Positions 5,850 through 31,191 of a stretch of 34,187 nucleotides of DNA are shown here, piece by piece. Below the pieces are notes generated by a model, which saw only the letters and a list, made by a program, of their open reading frames with translations, was not told the origin of the DNA and did not search any database. Numbering within the stretch: the first letter of the stretch is position 1; every line of letters starts with the position of its first letter. The stretch is from positions 1 through 34,187 of the IMG/VR virus record IMGVR_UViG_3300027852_000117; one strand, 5' to 3'. This DNA comes from a virus. The position numbers and the translations under genes were made by a program.

Positions 5850-6328
5850 TAAAATAATCCTGGGAAGTTGTTTGGGGTAAAGGTATCAGCCGGATAAGGT
5901 TCGTCTAAGATATTTTCATAAGACAGATCCCCTTCAACTGCAAGAACGTCATAGTCCGCTGTTTTCAGGGTAAAATCAAAGGGTCCGGCTTCCACAAAGC
6001 CGGTGGATGTTTCCATGTCATAAAATAAAAGCTCAAGGGATATTGTCGGCGCTGTTGTAAGGCTGCGGATCGTCTGCACTATCTGCCTGTCAACATTATC
6101 AATAATCAGTTTTACGCGGCTTATTTCGTCTTCTTTGTCGGCTGGAAGGTCTATCTGGAACGGGAAAGCCGTGTATTCAGTTGAACCGACTGTTATATTT
6201 TCGCGGTTATTAATGAAATATAAGGGCTGGTCTAAATCTGCGTGATCGATTGTCAGCAACAAAAAAAAAGGATCATCTGATTCCTGGTCATATATTGCCT
6301 TACGCGCATTTGTGCTTAAAATTCTCAT
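5849..6328 (-). CDS. DUF1833-family minor tail protein (L-like position)
   Basis: 159 aa when started at the ATG at 6328, which overlaps the upstream stop as ATGA and gives MRILSTNARKAIYDQESDDP. The open frame runs upstream to 6361, but those extra codons would sit inside the previous gene. The sequence has the DUF1833 pattern: FFLLLTIDHADLDQPLYF, then YTAFPFQIDLPADKED and a series of beta strands. In siphovirus tails this family sits between the M-like and NlpC/P60 genes, where lambda has gpL, and is taken to join the tail tip to the tape measure end. No catalytic residues are visible. Confidence 0.8.
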   Translation of the reverse strand: MRILSTNARKAIYDQESDDPFFLLLTIDHADLDQPLYFINNRENITVGSTEYTAFPFQIDLPADKEDEISRVKLIIDNVDRQIVQTIRSLTTAPTISLELLFYDMETSTGFVEAGPFDFTLKTADYDVLAVEGDLSYENILDEPYPADTFTPNNFPGLF

Positions 6329-6666
6329 GGCATCTGCTCCAGGGCGAATGACACCCGCCACAATAATGATTTTGAAGGTGTATAAACCGGTTGCCCAGTG
6401 AACCTGAACTCCTTTGTTATTTGTGTCCGGGGGGCCGCATAATCAAATCTTAAAGCACAGTTGGCAAGATAGAATGCGTCAAAGATCTCTACCTGCGCAT
6501 CAGTCATGTTCATATTGATTTTTACAGGCCGGTTGCCTGCCGTGAATCTGCGGCGGACTTTTTCTGGTCCAGCGTCCATAGAGGTTCGGATTGTCAGCTC
6601 CGGTGTGGTTTCTGAAAACCCTTCCTGTAATGGAAGTTGCGGCAATCCTGTTGGCCATGCTGCCAT
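6325..6666 (-). CDS. minor tail protein (M-like position)
   Basis: 113 aa. Starts at the stop of the tape measure gene (bases shared at 6666) and ends in an ATGA overlap with the next gene. The sequence is a mainly beta, soluble protein: MAAWPTGLPQLP, RRRFTAGNRPVKINMNMT, EIFDAFYLANCALRFDY and a final LLWRVSFALEQMP. Such proteins (FTAG..P...W.M...Q...F..FY) directly after the tape measure are minor tail proteins of siphoviruses, equivalent in place to lambda gpM. The assignment relies on both pattern and order. Confidence 0.75.
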   Translation of the reverse strand: MAAWPTGLPQLPLQEGFSETTPELTIRTSMDAGPEKVRRRFTAGNRPVKINMNMTDAQVEIFDAFYLANCALRFDYAAPRTQITKEFRFTGQPVYTPSKSLLWRVSFALEQMP

Positions 6667-8759
6667 TATCTCACCGCCCCTGCCCTGTTAAGGCCGAATG
6701 TAGAATTTATTGTTCTGCCGACATTACCGCCCCTTGATATATTGTCTGCAACCTCATCAATTACAATCTGTATGAGCTGCCTGCCATTACCGGATCTGCC
6801 TTTTTCAACATTAACCTCGCTTTTGGTGTTATTAATTACGTTGACCGTTACTCCGGAGGACAAAGCCTTGACTCCGAGATCACCGCCAGAAGTTCTGGTT
6901 AAGGGCATAACAGCTTCTGGCCCGGCCTCACCCATTAAGCCCATGCCCTGCGCCATAGGAAAAACAACCGGCTTTGTTACTACTCCGCCTTTTGCAAACG
7001 GAACGAGATTCCCGTCGCTGAAAACATTGCCCTTGGCGCTGGCAGTGGCACTGGCACCGCCAAGCCAGCCTGTAAAGCTGCCCATAATTGGAGCTACGAC
7101 TGCCTGTTGAATCATCATCTGGGTAATCATCTTTGCGAAGGACTCCAGGATGTCGCCGAATGTGGCGTCTGCATCCCACAGCATATCGTTTAATGTGGAT
7201 GAGAAATGGCTTCCCCAGCCTGTTATTGCTGTGGCCATCTCCTGTGAGAAAGTGGAGCTGGTTGTTTCTTTTAATTTTCCCATTTCAGCATCATAAGTTT
7301 TTGTCCATTGCTCCAGCATTTTGGTGTCGTCTTCATATTTTTTCTTATTTATTTCATTTTCTTCCTTTAACAGAAATTTACTATAGTCGAATTGATCCAG
7401 CTTTGCCTGTTTTTCACGGTGCAAAAAGACGTTTAAGCTTTCAAATTTTTCTGTGTTTTGTTTGTCATAATCAACTATCTGGCCTGCATAATCTTCGCCT
7501 GGGGAAACAGGCCATTGGGAGATTGCCTGTTTTGCATTTAAAGCAGCTTCAGTAACATAGTTCAACTTATCTGTATAAATTTCAAAAAGCGCAAAGTCCT
7601 CTTCTTTTGTGCCAAAATCAGCAGCGCCGAGGGACAGACCAGGGACTGTAATGTCTTGCATTGGTATTACAGGTTTTTTGCTTGTTTGTTTTTTTGGCTT
7701 ACCATCGTAATATTTCAATGAATCCTGTAATGTTTTTAACTGAAACTGATACGCTTTTATTTTTTTTTCAGCCTCTTCAGTATGTCCTGCTCCTTTCCAG
7801 AAATCGAGCATTCCTTTAGAATTTGAAAGCTCTCCGTCTAATATTTTTATCTGACCTTTAATTTCCTGTATTCTTTTTATTGTATGGTCTCTTGCCGTTG
7901 GCGGTGAAAAAAAATTTACCCAATATTCTGTTACAAGCTTTAATTGCCCGCCCAGATCTTTAACAAGAGGGGTTATAGCTTTAACAGCATTTGCAAAAGC
8001 ATCCAATGCGCCGGTTTCCATAAACTCTTTTTTCATTTCAAAATATGCATTATGCAAACGATTAATCTGCGCCTGGGCTGTTTTGGAAGCCTCCGCCACA
8101 CTGCCTTTATAACGTCCGCTTAATGCCTCTGCAAACTTAGGAAGAAAATCAACAGCAGTGACCTTTCCCATCTCAAGCATTTTTCCTAATTCCGCCGTGG
8201 TCACATTCATGGCCTTAGCTGCAATTTGAAACGCGCCTGGCAGACGTTCGCCAAGCTGCCCTCTTAATTCCTCCGCCTGCACAGTGCCTTTAGAAATCAT
8301 TTGGCCAATGGCAAGCAAAGCGCCACTTGTTTCGGCAGATGATAATTGCAGTGCAGTTGAAGCCTCGGCCATAGCAGTATAAATATCTTTTACGGCCTGC
8401 CCTTCCAGCGCAGTACCTCTTGCCGCTGCTGCTATTTTTTGGAAATCCGATATCTGATTTTCAAAAACAAGCCCCAGTCTTTCCGACTCAAGCCTTAAAA
8501 ACTTTTGAGCTTCAGCCCCTGCCTCAACAGAACCAAGCGCAGCCTCAAGCCCTCTTCCCATTTTTTCGGCTGCTATGCCTGTTTGAAGGAAACTTTTTGC
8601 TACTCCGCCAACTCCAACAGCCACTCCAAGCCCTATAAAAGCAGATTTTAAACCAAATACCTGCTTTTTGGCCGATTCCATATGCGAACCGGCAGTCTTA
8701 AAGGCCTTGGATGTTTTGTCTTTTGCGCTGATTATTATTTCAACTTTATTCTTTTGCAT
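6666..8759 (-). CDS. tail tape measure protein
   Basis: 697 aa. It sets tail length and leaves with the DNA at injection. The N-terminal 'tape measure domain' is clear at about residues 50-220 (FENQISDFQKIAAAARGT, ISKGTVQAEELRGQLGERLP). A coiled and charged middle follows (about 290-500). A hydrophobic stretch is near residues 565-590, and the C-terminal motif AKGGVVTKPVVFPMAQG...GLMGEAGPEAVMPL is typical of the family. At roughly 1.5 angstrom per residue the tail would be about 100 nm long (inference). Its ATG at 8759 lies inside the -1 frame of the chaperone fusion, whose stop is at 8746, so its translation may be coupled to frameshifted ribosomes. Confidence 0.93.
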   Translation of the reverse strand: MQKNKVEIIISAKDKTSKAFKTAGSHMESAKKQVFGLKSAFIGLGVAVGVGGVAKSFLQTGIAAEKMGRGLEAALGSVEAGAEAQKFLRLESERLGLVFENQISDFQKIAAAARGTALEGQAVKDIYTAMAEASTALQLSSAETSGALLAIGQMISKGTVQAEELRGQLGERLPGAFQIAAKAMNVTTAELGKMLEMGKVTAVDFLPKFAEALSGRYKGSVAEASKTAQAQINRLHNAYFEMKKEFMETGALDAFANAVKAITPLVKDLGGQLKLVTEYWVNFFSPPTARDHTIKRIQEIKGQIKILDGELSNSKGMLDFWKGAGHTEEAEKKIKAYQFQLKTLQDSLKYYDGKPKKQTSKKPVIPMQDITVPGLSLGAADFGTKEEDFALFEIYTDKLNYVTEAALNAKQAISQWPVSPGEDYAGQIVDYDKQNTEKFESLNVFLHREKQAKLDQFDYSKFLLKEENEINKKKYEDDTKMLEQWTKTYDAEMGKLKETTSSTFSQEMATAITGWGSHFSSTLNDMLWDADATFGDILESFAKMITQMMIQQAVVAPIMGSFTGWLGGASATASAKGNVFSDGNLVPFAKGGVVTKPVVFPMAQGMGLMGEAGPEAVMPLTRTSGGDLGVKALSSGVTVNVINNTKSEVNVEKGRSGNGRQLIQIVIDEVADNISRGGNVGRTINSTFGLNRAGAVR

Positions 8760-9416
8760 TTTTTTCCGTCAAAACCCCTGAACAAAAAGATAAAATAAGG
8801 TCATTAAGATAATGTTTTATGGTGTCAAAGCTGTAAAAAGTAATGGCTGAGTATATTGCCTGCTGGTTTATGCCGCCGAATGAGTCCATCCAGCAGGTTG
8901 ATTGTGCGATTTCGATTGCCAGGGCTGCGATGCGTGGAAGATTGCCTGGCGGCGCATTATCACAGCCTTCGCACACAGGCGTTCTGTTTTTTATTTTGGC
9001 GTTTTCCCGGCATGTTTTGCACATTTTCGGGCTATGTCTGCATGTCCATTTCCCGTATTCAAAGACTTTTTTTTTACAGTGTCCCATTGAGCCACAGCAT
9101 CGGCCATAATCCTGTATGCCAGTTTGTCATTTGCTGAAAACAGCATGGCTTTTGCATCCGTAGAGCATGTTACAGGCTCGCTTTTATGGTCAACAATATC
9201 TGACCAGCCCACAACATGCTCTATGCACCAATAGTATGCGAACAACGTAACACGTACGCTTTCTATGTTGTTGCCCTTTGTATTATCAGGCACATCCTGT
9301 AATGATTTTAATATGCAGCGTGTCCTGGACGGAAGTGTCTCAGGGATTACAAAAAAAACTGCATCGTCAATTGTTATTTCAAGCTTTGCTATGTTTTTTA
9401 ATTGCATTTTGTTCAT
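8746..9416 (-). CDS. frameshifted tail assembly chaperone (G-T-like fusion)
   Basis: Predicted product of a -1 ribosomal frameshift at 9066-9072. Residues 1-117 of the zero-frame chaperone are followed by 106 residues from the -1 frame, giving about 223 aa. In lambda, gpG and gpGT coat the tape measure and recruit tube subunits; the pair always lies between the tube and tape measure genes, as here. The extension starts VFEYGKWTC and is rich in cysteine: WTC, KMCKTCRENA and VCEGCDN give CxxC-type pairs that could bind zinc. It then becomes helical and ends just inside the tape measure gene. The -1 frame has an ATG at 9087 but no good ribosome site before it, which favours fusion over separate translation. 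Confidence 0.75.
8991..9416 (-). CDS. tail assembly chaperone (G-like), zero frame
   Basis: 141 aa, the unshifted product. It begins with MNKMQLKNIAKLEITIDDAV, has a beta-rich N-terminus and a helical region (VRVTLFAYYWCIEHVVGW), and ends TPK before TAA at 8991. The 115-KKK-117 codons are the slip site. Position between the tail tube gene and tape measure, and the overlap with a long -1 frame, identify it; sequence similarity to any named chaperone cannot be seen by eye. A REP-containing gap of 161 bases separates it from the tube gene. Confidence 0.75.
   Translation of the reverse strand: MNKMQLKNIAKLEITIDDAVFFVIPETLPSRTRCILKSLQDVPDNTKGNNIESVRVTLFAYYWCIEHVVGWSDIVDHKSEPVTCSTDAKAMLFSANDKLAYRIMADAVAQWDTVKKKSLNTGNGHADIARKCAKHAGKTPK
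9066..9072 (-). promoter_or_regulatory. -1 ribosomal slippery site A AAA AAG
   Basis: On the minus strand a run of nine A is followed by G. In the zero frame this reads GTA AAA AAA AAG, so the heptamer A AAA AAG lies exactly in the phase needed for tandem -1 slippage; AAG is codon 117. This heptamer is the most efficient bacterial type, as in dnaX. A weak CGGG/CCCG stem can be drawn downstream; no strong pseudoknot is obvious. Confidence 0.85.
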
Positions 9417-9422
9417 CCTTTA

Positions 9423-9517
9423 TGGATTCCCGCCTTCGCGGGAATGACGACATGGATCCCCGCCTTCGCGGGAATGACGATTATGATTGTGGAGACGGGC
9501 GAACACAAGATTCGCCC
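9423..9517. repeat. REP-like palindromes between tube and chaperone genes
   Basis: Two direct 28-bp copies (9423-9450 and 9453-9480) contain the hairpin CCCGCCTTCGCGGG followed by AATGACGA. A third palindrome, GGGCGAA...TTCGCCC, is at 9497-9517. They are host-type intergenic repeats rather than phage structure. The gap 9417-9577 has no gene. Confidence 0.8.
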
Positions 9518-9577: not shown

Positions 9578-10522
9578 TTAATACGATGCCTGGTCGTTAA
9601 TAAGAACAGCCTGAAAACATGTGTCGTCAGGTGATGCATTCTGAAAATAACCTGTAAATTCAAGTGATACCCAGATTCCTCCAGGGCCTGACAGCTCAGG
9701 AGAGTTTCGTTTATACGTCAGCTCATTTATTGTGAGCTCAAGGGAATTTGTGCCTGATGTGAATGTTGTCACCAGGCTTGATTCAGTGCTGTCTATTGCT
9801 TTGTCTAACAGGGTTGCATCCTCAAACATCGCCTCCAGGGATCCTGAAATAGAGACAATTCCTTCAGGCAGCGCCCCTCGGATTCCGCCGCCGCCTATTA
9901 CGTATGAACCTGCATCCAGATTATTTGCAAAGGACATTTTCAGGTTACGCGCAGTGGCAAGAGAGCTGCCTCCTTCTGTTATTGCAGCCTGAAAGTTTTG
10001 AAATTTCGTCAGGGCAAGCTCATCCGGAGCGGCATCAAATGAAGATGTATCAAGGGTTTCTTTTGCGCCTATAATTCCAAAATCTGCAGTCAGTTCATTA
10101 TCTCCGCCAATATCAATACTCATTGAATCTATCTTGCAGCCGTTAAAGAGAAAAAACTGATTGATATCTGTAAAACCCTGTTCGATAACGAGGGATGGAA
10201 CATCATCTGAAACCTGAAAAGTATGATTATAGGGGCCTGTGCCTGTTGTGACAGGATCTCCGAGCAAAGCCTTTAGCCAGTTCCCAAAATTCAGGATATC
10301 AACAGGCACTGTTATACTGCCTGAAACATCAATATTACCGTCTGACGGTTCAATAGGATCACGACGGCCTGTAATTGTTGCAGATTCAATCTGATTGCGT
10401 GTTGATTTTAATGCTGATGAGTTGACAGGGCATAATATGCCTGCCGGTGTATCAGGTGTTGAGCCGTATGTTGTTTCAAAATCTATTACTATTTGTCCCT
10501 TGCTTCCCTTTGCCTGTGCCAT
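9578..10522 (-). CDS. major tail tube protein
   Basis: 314 aa from the ATG at 10522, which has AGGAG eight bases upstream; an open frame continues further upstream but without a ribosome site. The protein starts MAQAKGSKGQIVIDFETTYG, the usual opening of siphovirus tube proteins of this type, with TPDTPAGILCPVNSSALK next. It is mostly beta and acidic, with Ser/Thr/Gly-rich strands to the end. It follows the gp37 gene by four bases and precedes the tail chaperones, the standard order. Its length exceeds that of the lambda tube protein (246 aa), suggesting an extra surface domain. Confidence 0.82.
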   Translation of the reverse strand: MAQAKGSKGQIVIDFETTYGSTPDTPAGILCPVNSSALKSTRNQIESATITGRRDPIEPSDGNIDVSGSITVPVDILNFGNWLKALLGDPVTTGTGPYNHTFQVSDDVPSLVIEQGFTDINQFFLFNGCKIDSMSIDIGGDNELTADFGIIGAKETLDTSSFDAAPDELALTKFQNFQAAITEGGSSLATARNLKMSFANNLDAGSYVIGGGGIRGALPEGIVSISGSLEAMFEDATLLDKAIDSTESSLVTTFTSGTNSLELTINELTYKRNSPELSGPGGIWVSLEFTGYFQNASPDDTCFQAVLINDQASY

Positions 10523-27726: not shown

Positions 27727-28319
27727 GGCTGCACCTCCTGTTTTTGTTTTAATTTTTTTTCAATGTTTCGGCAAAGGTCTATGGCTTCTTTGCATGCTGC
27801 ATCATCACATATCACGCGTCCTGAGCATATCAGCCTGTTAAGATTTACCGTCTCTTCTATTATTGGTTCAGGCTTGAACTCTCTGTACAGCACAGGCTTC
27901 TTGAAAAAAGCCTGGCCTTTTGCCGTAAGTCGCCATAATTTTTCATATCCGCCGGTAATGTTTTGTTTGCGGCCTGACGGCTTAATCAAATTTTCTGCAA
28001 GGTAATACTTCAGCCGTTTATATATATAGTTAATTGTTGACCCTGTCTGGAGAGCTATTTCACCGGATGTAAACACAGGATTAATCCTTAATGCATGACG
28101 AATCTTATTTTCTACAATGCTTTTTTGCGCAGGGGTTTTATTGCAAAACTCATAAAGGCCGTGACTGATCCGTTTCAGGGCGCCCTGGGAGCAAAGAGTT
28201 TCCACAGAACTTTTTGCCTGCTCTTTGGAAAGATTAAGGTCTTTTTGCACCTGTTTTTTCCGTATAAGATTTTGTACGGAAGCGTATTGCCGTACCTGAT
28301 CCGTTATATTGATTTTCAT
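27723..28319 (-). CDS. winged-helix early regulator
   Basis: 198 aa with two probable winged-helix units. First: SVQNLIRKKQVQKDLNLSKE-like helices and SQGALKRISHGLYEF as wing (about 15-57). Second: RINPVFTSGEIALQTGSTIN, YIYKRLKYYLAENLIKPSGR with wing GGYEKLWRLTAKG (about 75-130). C-terminal helix NRLICSGRVICDDAACKEAI. It could bind DNA or act as a replication adaptor between A/B and host proteins. No close named family by eye. Confidence 0.65.
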   Translation of the reverse strand: MKINITDQVRQYASVQNLIRKKQVQKDLNLSKEQAKSSVETLCSQGALKRISHGLYEFCNKTPAQKSIVENKIRHALRINPVFTSGEIALQTGSTINYIYKRLKYYLAENLIKPSGRKQNITGGYEKLWRLTAKGQAFFKKPVLYREFKPEPIIEETVNLNRLICSGRVICDDAACKEAIDLCRNIEKKLKQKQEVQP

Positions 28320-29032
28320 TTTCTGCGTCCCCCTGTCGGGCCTTTTTTTCTTGCAGGCAGTGCATTTACATGATCAAGAGTAACCGCGTTAATTTTATTT
28401 GCCCTGGCAAGCCGTTCCATGTCTCTAAGATCAAGCCATACAGTCCTAAAATCCCCTTTTGCCCTTGCAGCCAAAGCGCCTGCAGCTTCAGGTTCTATTT
28501 TCAGATCGGCTGCTTTCATTCCAAGAAGCAGCACATCTTCTGTAATTACAGGCCCAAACTCTACAGTTTTTGTGACCCTGCTTAAAATTCTTGGTCGCGC
28601 TGAAACCGTTGCGTACAGTTCCGGCTCCCCGATTAGCACAACCGGCGCGCCTGTTAGATCGTGAATGTCACGGAGATGCTCTATCAGGTTAATCTTCAGC
28701 CGGTCAGCTTCATCAACAAGAATTGTAAGGTTGTTTGCTTCCAACTCTTCACAGATAATCTTTTTTGCGCGCTCTTTTGTGTGCGGCTCCATACCGTTGA
28801 TAGAGCTGCATATTGCCGCCAACATTCCGCGCGGCGTCCAGTCTTCCATGACTCTGATATAACATGCGCCTGTCCTGACAGCATATTCCCTTGCGCATTC
28901 GGTTTTTCCCCGGCCAGGCTGTCCCCAGACAACCATCAGTCCGGGCTGACCTTTTTCCATGTCCTCCACAACCGACAGGGCTTCACGGAATTCAACAACA
29001 CGTTTGGTTTCAAGAAATATTCGTTTCATCAT
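28316..29032 (-). CDS. MuB-like transposition ATPase
   Basis: 238 aa AAA+ ATPase. Walker A GQPGRGKT at residues 37-44; Walker B ILVDEAD ending at 110; the sensor region VVLIGEPELY follows. MuB binds target DNA, activates the transposase and gives target immunity. Mu B itself is 312 aa with an N-terminal HTH; this shorter form lacks that domain and resembles the B proteins of D3112-like phages. Starts in ATGA overlap with the transposase gene. Confidence 0.92.
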   Translation of the reverse strand: MMKRIFLETKRVVEFREALSVVEDMEKGQPGLMVVWGQPGRGKTECAREYAVRTGACYIRVMEDWTPRGMLAAICSSINGMEPHTKERAKKIICEELEANNLTILVDEADRLKINLIEHLRDIHDLTGAPVVLIGEPELYATVSARPRILSRVTKTVEFGPVITEDVLLLGMKAADLKIEPEAAGALAARAKGDFRTVWLDLRDMERLARANKINAVTLDHVNALPARKKGPTGGRRK

Positions 29033-31191
29033 CCTCCCTTTACCTGTTTTTGCCTGTCCATCAGGCTGTATAATTCTTTCAAATCTGCGAACCGGTTATA
29101 ATAATTTTCTTTAAACTCTTCGGTCTTTTCAAAGTATGCCATAAAGGCTGCATCCTCTTCGTTCAGATCCTGTCTGTGCTCGTATTCGACTGCAAACGCC
29201 CATTCATAATGCTGCAAATCAGACTGCCAGATTGCCGGACGTTTTATTTTCTGTTCCTGAGCTTTATCTTTTTCGGCCTGCTCCATAATTAGCTCCAGGC
29301 GTTTTATTTCAGTTTTATCCATTTTTTCCGGCTGATTTTGGGTTTTAATATGCGTATTTTGGGCCCTGTTAATCGGGACAACTTTGTTGTATGGGAGGGC
29401 ATCTAATGTTTGAATATCGGATGATGAGGCCCCCAGTTCTAAAAGCTGTTCTTTTGTTTTTTTTGCCAGGCTTGCATGATGTTTGATTGTTTTTGTGACG
29501 GCATCCATTGCGATTTGATCTCCAAAGAGAGATGCAAGCGGATGAAGAGCCCGCACGGGCAGAGCTTCGCCGAGGTATTGTTTGTCTTTAGAATAACAAT
29601 ATATTTTGCGCAGGTCAGAGGCATCATACATTATAAGCAGCTTTGCATTTGCGCTGCGGCCGTGAAGAAAATCAGCCTCATAATCTATGCCGTACAGCCT
29701 GACGCGGCATTTGCGGGGCGCTATTTCTTTGCGCCACAAAAAGTCATAATTTAGGGTGTTTGCGTCAATTCCAGGCCCAAGCCCCGGCTGAAGCACGTCA
29801 ATCGGCTTGCTGCCGTTGAGTCCTGCGTGGGGCTGATTAACATACCATCTGAAATATGACTCTATAATATGTCCGGCCTCGTCTATACTCGGGACCCAGT
29901 TGTCTGTTTTTGCTTTATGCCATGCCTTGTGAAACTTCTCGTTTCTATGCATCCATGCCGGTTTTGTTGCGATTGAATCTCCGCAAAAAGATGGCAGCAG
30001 GCATTCGCACTGCTCTTGAAATGTAAGAAAGAACCTTTCCACTACTTTTGATCTGCCTGAATAGGGCTTTGCTGTTTGCACTGCCGTGCCGACACGGCCA
30101 TAAAGGCCTGCAAATTCATTCATGTCAGGATTTGTTGTTATGAAAAATTTAGACTTGAAAGCACGGCCGTTATCGATATAAACAGCTTCAGGATATCTCC
30201 CGAGATTGATTGCCGAGCGCCTGAATGCTGCATGTATGGCCATTGTATTTTCTGTTGGCATGAGCTGCCATCCAACAGGGCATCTACTTGCCCAGTCAAA
30301 AAATACTATAAGAATCATTCTGACAGGTTTGCCTGTTTCCGGATGCAGGATAAGAAAGTTTAAAACCTTTCCGTCTGCAACAAGGCATTGACCGGGAGAC
30401 AGGGCAGAGGCATCACGGGTAATATATGGCGCGTATTGATCCTGATATGCTTTCATCCCCTCTCTTGCAAGACAGATTACATGGGAATTGATTTCTGTAT
30501 AATCAGTGAGCCAGCGCCGAAATGTTGAGTCTGCGCTGTTTTCAATTATATTCTTTTTTTCCATTATAATTCTTGTCGCCCTGATTGCCATAATCACAGA
30601 CGGCTGGCTGGGCTGAAGATAGCATTGCAAAAAGACTCTTTTCGTTTCTTCAGTCAAATTACGTGCTTTCCATTTTGTTGTGCCATGTTTTTTCCATCCG
30701 CCCCGGCCATCACAAAGGGCCAGATAAGAGCCGCCATTTGCAACGAGCTTTCGTTCGAGATTGCCCAGGGTTTTTTTAGTTATTTTTCCTATTTGCTGAA
30801 AAACAAGGGGAAGATAAACCCCTGAGTTATATGCCAGAATAAAGTCTCTTGCCGCCCGCTGTTTTTTGCCCCATACTGCAGACTCTTTGGCAAACTGAAA
30901 GGCCTTGACAAGCTGAAATTTTGCCAGGCCTGTTTTTTTTGCACGTTCCGGAACGTTGCAGTCCTGTGTTTCCGTGATAACTGGGCTTATAGACAGCCCT
31001 GCGGATTCAATTTCTTTTTTTGCGGCGGCGCTGCGGATATCTTCAGGCAAAAGGCCGGCAATATATTTTTTTTGCCTGCCCCCTTTTTTTGTTTCCGATC
31101 CGGCTGACCATGATTGTTTTTGTGCTTTCATTCTGACTGCCCTGTTTGAAGTATTCAGAATATTGCCAAGCTCATTCGCAGAAATTTCCAC
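29029..31191 (-). CDS. MuA-like DDE transposase
   Basis: 720 aa; MuA is 663. N-terminal HTH for end binding: MEISANELGNILNTSNRAVR with KKGGRQKKYIAGLLPEDIR. Catalytic RNase H-like core with Asp273 (CLVADGKVLNF), Asp340 (VYIDNGRAFKS) and Glu385 (SKVVERFFLTFQ), close to D269/D336/E392 of MuA. A beta-barrel follows (CRVRLYGIDYEADFLHGRSA), then a basic, Glu/Lys-rich C-terminus (about 630-720) that would meet the B protein. The start codon is GTG, with GAGGA upstream. It performs both integration and replicative transposition. Confidence 0.95.
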   Translation of the reverse strand: MEISANELGNILNTSNRAVRMKAQKQSWSAGSETKKGGRQKKYIAGLLPEDIRSAAAKKEIESAGLSISPVITETQDCNVPERAKKTGLAKFQLVKAFQFAKESAVWGKKQRAARDFILAYNSGVYLPLVFQQIGKITKKTLGNLERKLVANGGSYLALCDGRGGWKKHGTTKWKARNLTEETKRVFLQCYLQPSQPSVIMAIRATRIIMEKKNIIENSADSTFRRWLTDYTEINSHVICLAREGMKAYQDQYAPYITRDASALSPGQCLVADGKVLNFLILHPETGKPVRMILIVFFDWASRCPVGWQLMPTENTMAIHAAFRRSAINLGRYPEAVYIDNGRAFKSKFFITTNPDMNEFAGLYGRVGTAVQTAKPYSGRSKVVERFFLTFQEQCECLLPSFCGDSIATKPAWMHRNEKFHKAWHKAKTDNWVPSIDEAGHIIESYFRWYVNQPHAGLNGSKPIDVLQPGLGPGIDANTLNYDFLWRKEIAPRKCRVRLYGIDYEADFLHGRSANAKLLIMYDASDLRKIYCYSKDKQYLGEALPVRALHPLASLFGDQIAMDAVTKTIKHHASLAKKTKEQLLELGASSSDIQTLDALPYNKVVPINRAQNTHIKTQNQPEKMDKTEIKRLELIMEQAEKDKAQEQKIKRPAIWQSDLQHYEWAFAVEYEHRQDLNEEDAAFMAYFEKTEEFKENYYNRFADLKELYSLMDRQKQVKGG

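Follow-up and report, generated by a model that had tools for sequence, protein, structure and literature searches.

A lambda-like -1 frameshift very probably adds a conserved four-cysteine module to the tail assembly chaperone of a phage

Introduction

When a phage reading frame runs into nine adenines between the tail tube and tape measure genes, does translation simply continue to the stop of that frame, or do some ribosomes slip into a second frame that carries four cysteines, and is such a design peculiar to this phage? The tail assembly chaperone mechanism of lambda gpG/gpGT has been reviewed (PMC5009743, citing Levin 1993; Xu 2004, 2013, 2014), and the frameshift has been termed usual for tail assembly chaperone genes (PMC8601537). 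Here we address the question for the whole IMG/VR virus record IMGVR_UViG_3300027852_000117, a stretch of 34,187 bases referred to below as the window. Genes for a MuA-like transposase and a MuB-like ATPase were read from its open reading frames at 28316-31191, and on this reading the record resembles a transposable Mu-like phage whose tail is of the siphophage type. We consider it highly likely that the region between tube and tape measure genes encodes a chaperone pair of the lambda G/GT type, made by a -1 slip, with a probable zinc knuckle in its T part.

Results and Discussion

Two frames and a slippery run in the window

The chaperone frames are flanked, according to family searches, by a Phage_tube_2 tail tube gene upstream and a TMP_3 tape measure gene downstream. 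The features are as follows.

6666..8759, minus strand: tape measure gene (TMP_3, E = 5.4e-27), its start overlapping the -1 frame
8746..9072, minus strand: -1 extension (T-like) with KK, a helix, the Cys4 module, a DUF1799-like helical domain and the stop, based on the relatives' profile, alignments and a structural model
8962..9021, minus strand: Cys4 module CKTC-x12-CEGC, a putative zinc knuckle, its cysteines invariant in aligned extensions
8991..9065, minus strand: zero-frame remainder past the slippery site, 24 codons and a stop, translated when no shift occurs
9066..9075, minus strand: slippery run A9G with in-phase A AAA AAA and A AAA AAG, similar heptamers standing at the equivalent place in related loci
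9066..9416, minus strand: G-like tail assembly chaperone domain, read in the zero frame as far as the slippery site, between the tube and tape measure genes
9082..9085, minus strand: GGGA, a weak Shine-Dalgarno-like sequence and possible stimulator, 9 nt upstream of A AAA AAG
9578..10519, minus strand: tail tube gene from ATG 10519 (Phage_tube_2, E = 3.8e-54), within a longer TTG-started frame from 10594

The zero-frame ORF (9416-8991, minus strand) includes the sequence GTA AAA AAA AAG TCT. Counted from ATG 9416, codons 115-117 read AAA AAA AAG, and the heptamer A AAA AAG (9072-9066) lies in exact phase at codons 116-117; the overlapping A AAA AAA (9075-9069) is likewise in phase. Read in the -1 frame, the sequence stays open from 9126 until the stop at 8748-8746. 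This gives a fusion of 117 + 106 = 223 aa, and ATG 8759 of the tape measure gene falls 14 nt inside the -1 frame. The preliminary description had reported this phase, this opening down to 8746, the 223-aa fusion and the enclosed tape measure start, and all of them hold. The chaperone itself more likely starts at ATG 9407 than at ATG 9416, because AAGGA stands 8 nt upstream of the former. Between the tube stop and the chaperone start, at window positions 9429-9478, the sequence GTCATTCCCGCGAAGGCGGG occurs in two exact copies 30 nt apart; the pair is a REP/MITE-like repeat, of a type known from bacterial chromosomes and located here in a phage morphogenesis operon.

The -1 frame is conserved as protein. 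A profile of the -1 extensions of cysteine-bearing A-type relatives (those with A AAA AAN heptamers), from which the window was left out, was compared with the 618 six-frame segments of the whole window, and it matched 8749-9126 on the minus strand at E = 4.6e-11, the next best segment scoring 0.049. The alignment begins exactly at the KK of the slippery site. The zero-frame half is far less conserved, with a weak profile match to the relatives' zero-frame proteins (E 0.0022-0.0045).

The frameshift design is shared by related loci

A direct search of phages, viral contigs and genome contigs with the 223-aa fusion found no real homologue; a match to Pseudomonas phage Henu_18-20N (E = 6) falls in an unrelated region and was rejected. 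Relatives were reached through the tail tube gene, for which an alignment of six sequences proved too divergent as a search query, while one of three worked. This yielded about 70 related loci, of which 65 are viral (two had been found earlier) and 7 lie in genomes, plus named phages. The genome loci come from Desulfobacterales, Deferribacteraceae, Desulfomicrobium, Megasphaera, Geobacter and others.

At each locus, a script scanned the sequence following the tube gene for another open frame that comes with a heptamer in phase. Where the interval between tube and tape measure genes is intact, most loci share one design, among them records from Desulfobacterales, Deferribacteraceae, Megasphaera and Geobacter. 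A chaperone of 80-200 aa is encoded in the zero frame, a heptamer (A AAA AAC/A/G or T TTT TTC/T/G/A) lies in phase near its end, and the -1 frame ends close to where the tape measure gene starts. The script chose the wrong frame in three loci (L015, L022 and L038); the first two were afterwards read by eye. No frame pair was obtained for 14 loci, several of them cut off at contig ends and six (L018, L019, L044, L049, L059 and L078) left unassigned, and in L055 and L085 the -1 frame lacks a heptamer. In many A-type relatives the zero frame stops only 2-4 codons past the heptamer. The relatives keep the in-phase heptamer, and neither a pair of independently started genes nor a missing run was found to be their arrangement. 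The proposal that G and G-T type chaperones are made here by a programmed -1 frameshift is therefore strongly supported by the comparison.

Several named phages carry recognizable versions of the design. In Rhodobacter phage RcBaka (MW677509; L015), which has a related tube, genes 16/17 are annotated as a joined chaperone CDS, the Cys4 module follows the slippery site directly and the overlap with the tape measure gene is 8 nt. RcBaka differs in its in-phase junction site (G GGA AAC), in the shorter spacing between its cysteine pairs and in a T domain nearer DUF7697, and its sequence is only remotely similar. VarioGold, Enterobacter phage Phc, Synechococcus phage S-CBS1 and Nitratiruptor phage NrS-4 have an in-phase A AAA AAC or A AAA AAG, a -1 frame starting with KK, a C-terminal part of the TQWR...GLDY type and a DUF1799-type T domain, but lack the cysteine module. 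In two Synechococcus phages the annotated second chaperone gene begins well past the slip site (Sc-Yong805-1, L006 5400-5633; S-CBS1, L086 1276-1539); that of Sc-Yong805-1 starts inside the conserved extension and thereby loses the Cys module.

The slip heptamer of lambda is GGGAAAG. The window resembles the lambda system in the position of the chaperone between tube and tape measure genes, in a -1 shift that falls towards the end of the first ORF and in the fusion of T to G; it differs in its heptamer and in its DUF1799-like T domain with a Cys4 module. No sequence similarity to lambda gpG/gpGT was shown in this analysis.

The preliminary description had also suggested that the tape measure start within the shifted frame could tie its translation to frameshifting. 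A tape measure start overlapping the end of the -1 frame was found in 29 of the 59 loci with a measurable start, most commonly by 8 nt. Since such overlaps are common among relatives, we reject a special coupling and regard the 14-nt overlap as ordinary; no link between frameshifting and tape measure synthesis is suggested beyond common translational coupling.

Stimulators and other routes to the second frame

Shine-Dalgarno (SD) cores are enriched upstream of the heptamer in the family. They lie 5-14 nt upstream in 16 of 29 non-redundant A-type loci, whereas other in-frame positions in these genes give 4.5 +/- 1.9 and 2000 resamplings never reached 16. In the T TTT TTN group they do so in 9 of 19 loci, as against 3.0 +/- 1.6. 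Very stable hairpins follow the site in some relatives (L021, z -4.5; L023, z -4.9; L041, z -5.0). That of L041, at 6302-6333, is a perfect 14-bp hairpin 8 nt past A AAA AAC and looks like a textbook frameshift stimulator. Upstream of the window's heptamer there is no strict SD core, only the GGGA, and RNA structure downstream of it is no better than in shuffled sequences (z -0.4 and -1.0). The A9 run may be slippery enough without a stimulator.

Could the second frame arise in another way? A mistake of assembly or sequencing within a single intact gene would be natural to suspect where the break falls on a homopolymer, but independent records from many sources share the break at different sequences, often with the zero-frame stop soon after the heptamer; comparison with these related records refutes an error, to which we give practically no weight. 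We also think it very unlikely that the -1 ORF is a separate gene read from ATG 9087 or a later ATG. That ATG lies in the -1 frame of the window five codons before the heptamer, so that the frame is not formally closed to internal initiation, and Sc-Yong805-1 and S-CBS1 have been annotated with a separate second gene. However, the window sequence has no Shine-Dalgarno sequence ahead of ATG 9087, and in 17 of 27 A-type Cys loci (the window and some near-identical pairs are counted here) the -1 frame has no ATG, GTG or TTG from the opening stop to the first CxxC. The Cys part is thus hardly reachable in those loci without a shift, which makes frameshifting the plausible route, and the annotated second genes begin within the extension that the family conserves.

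A change of frame by RNA polymerase slipping on the nine adenines, instead of or besides the ribosome, deserves somewhat more weight, yet we still hold it to be distinctly unlikely. The window's run is A9G and has no strong ribosomal stimulator, and transcriptional slippage on an A11 run produces two length variants of TssM in Citrobacter rodentium (PMC4256274). Most A-type relatives, however, have only A AAA AAC, with six to seven A, which makes transcriptional slippage unlikely as the mechanism of the family, while the second group uses T TTT TTN and SD-like stimulators are enriched upstream. What these sites have in common is the in-phase heptamer, which is accordingly the conserved feature.

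Judged from the sequence, a programmed ribosomal slip very probably gives this phage a chaperone in two forms, one long and one short; the occurrence of the slip in the cell and its level are what we infer. Most ribosomes would complete the zero frame and yield the short chaperone, whereas a minority would slip by -1 on the A9G run, with tRNA-Lys re-pairing on A AAA AAG, and yield a fusion of about 220 aa. On the lambda model, many copies of the G part would coat what is presumably the tape measure protein. The T part, of which there would be few copies, would bring in a partner, presumably the tail tube subunit, whereupon polymerisation would start; G and GT would both depart before the tail is completed. 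In this phage and its relatives, the T part would consist of a short helix, a CxxC-x(n)-CxxC element that is most likely a structural zinc knuckle, and a DUF1799-like helical domain.

The cysteine module

Across 21 aligned extensions no residues are invariant except the two lysines of the slippery site and the cysteines C18, C21, C34 and C37. With RcBaka and two other phages added to the alignment, C18, C34 and C37 remain invariant and C21 is kept in at least 90%. The module is all or none: both Cys pairs are present in 24 of 32 distinct A-type loci (counting RcBaka, which has GGGAAAC) and neither in the other 8, with no intermediates. In L057 and L058 there is an insertion within the second Cys pair, and both cysteines are retained. 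The preliminary description had singled out the cysteine-rich extension as unusual; it is real and conserved, with invariant, all-or-none cysteines, but it is a feature of the whole family and not peculiar to this phage.

An invariant Cys4 set that is present or absent as a whole and kept despite insertions looks like a metal site, in the simplest case one for structural zinc. The Cys4 module is probably a structural zinc knuckle ahead of the DUF1799-like T domain, its metal binding being putative, and we regard zinc as the likely metal. An iron-sulfur cluster, disulfides or a redox switch could be invoked instead, for the relatives with named hosts include anaerobes (Desulfobacterales, Megasphaera), in which Fe-S could occur, and different metals are indistinguishable by sequence. 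Such alternatives appear unlikely to us, though less so than those raised against ribosomal slippage: two CxxC pairs of variable spacing, the cysteine-sparing insertions and the all-or-none loss fit Zn(Cys)4 best, and the module occurs in Rhodobacter and cyanobacterial phages as well. A Pfam match of the fusion to zf_ULT1 (E = 0.00099, below the curated cut-off) spans from the zero-frame half into the -1 half and was taken as chance.

In the Cys4-free relatives Phc, VarioGold, S-CBS1 and NrS-4 a metal-free stretch replaces the module, and the similar design of these phages indicates that the Cys module is optional in the wider family. Within the T TTT TTN group, six loci (L003, 6214-6591; L004, 6202-6600; L038; L043; L045; L046) carry a closely similar Cys4 motif, YCxxCRxxGxxDCxxC, at the far C-terminal end; L038 is counted with this group though its slip site is unclear. 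There the Cys4 sits on a -1 extension otherwise unlike the A-type one. The A-type profile scores 10-14.6 bits on these motifs, compared with a mean of 2.6 and a maximum of 14.2 for shuffles that keep the Cys positions, and the close relatives L026-L034 are without the motif. A tentative reading, which we consider possible but doubtful, is that frameshifted tail chaperones acquire or lose the Cys4 knuckle whole, as a functional and portable part; it would cover the module that directly follows the slip site here and in 23 further A-type loci, and the C-terminal motif of the T TTT TTN group. We found no description of a Cys module in tail chaperones in the open literature that we searched. The Cys4 module of the frameshifted chaperone is apparently undescribed so far.

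Family and fold of the T domain

DUF1799 is matched by 13 of 23 aligned extensions, DUF7697 by 5 and PHROG 680 by 17. The Pfam DUF1799 match begins after the Cys module, and PHROG 23549, of unknown function, spans the module in relatives. PHROG 680 is labelled tape measure protein, a misleading label, as it is actually a small chaperone of the T type. PHROG 23549 and PHROG 680 match the relatives' extensions, but in the window itself the extension reaches the threshold of no Pfam or PHROG family. Given the family matches of the relatives and the strong profile match, with the window below the Pfam cut-off, we regard the extension as a distant DUF1799/DUF7697 relative and do not file it as a member; the window's copy is divergent.

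An AlphaFold2 model of the -1 extension (mean pLDDT 76) has helices at residues 2-12, 19-28, 47-58, 70-79 and 83-107. The first Cys pair opens the second helix, and the loop that follows this helix holds the second pair. Foldseek gave no confident match for either of two models, and the best viral matches, at E of 1 or more, include several tail assembly or tape measure chaperones. For a zinc ribbon or knuckle fold there was no PDB match better than E = 5.5, a weak test with so small a module and a model of medium confidence, and a profile search of the PDB for such likeness returned only ribosomal L37 (E = 0.58).

Conclusion

Our comparison confirms that transposable siphophages of little-studied bacteria have a lambda-like frameshift. 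In public annotations the second frame can be called from too late a start, which cuts away the Cys module. This module, which probably binds zinc, is confined to the frameshifted form of the chaperone, and it offers a handle on what the few long copies do that the many short copies cannot. If the Cys4 knuckle is indeed portable, it would represent a zinc-dependent contact, for example with the tail tube or tape measure protein, that is exclusive to the rare frameshifted form.
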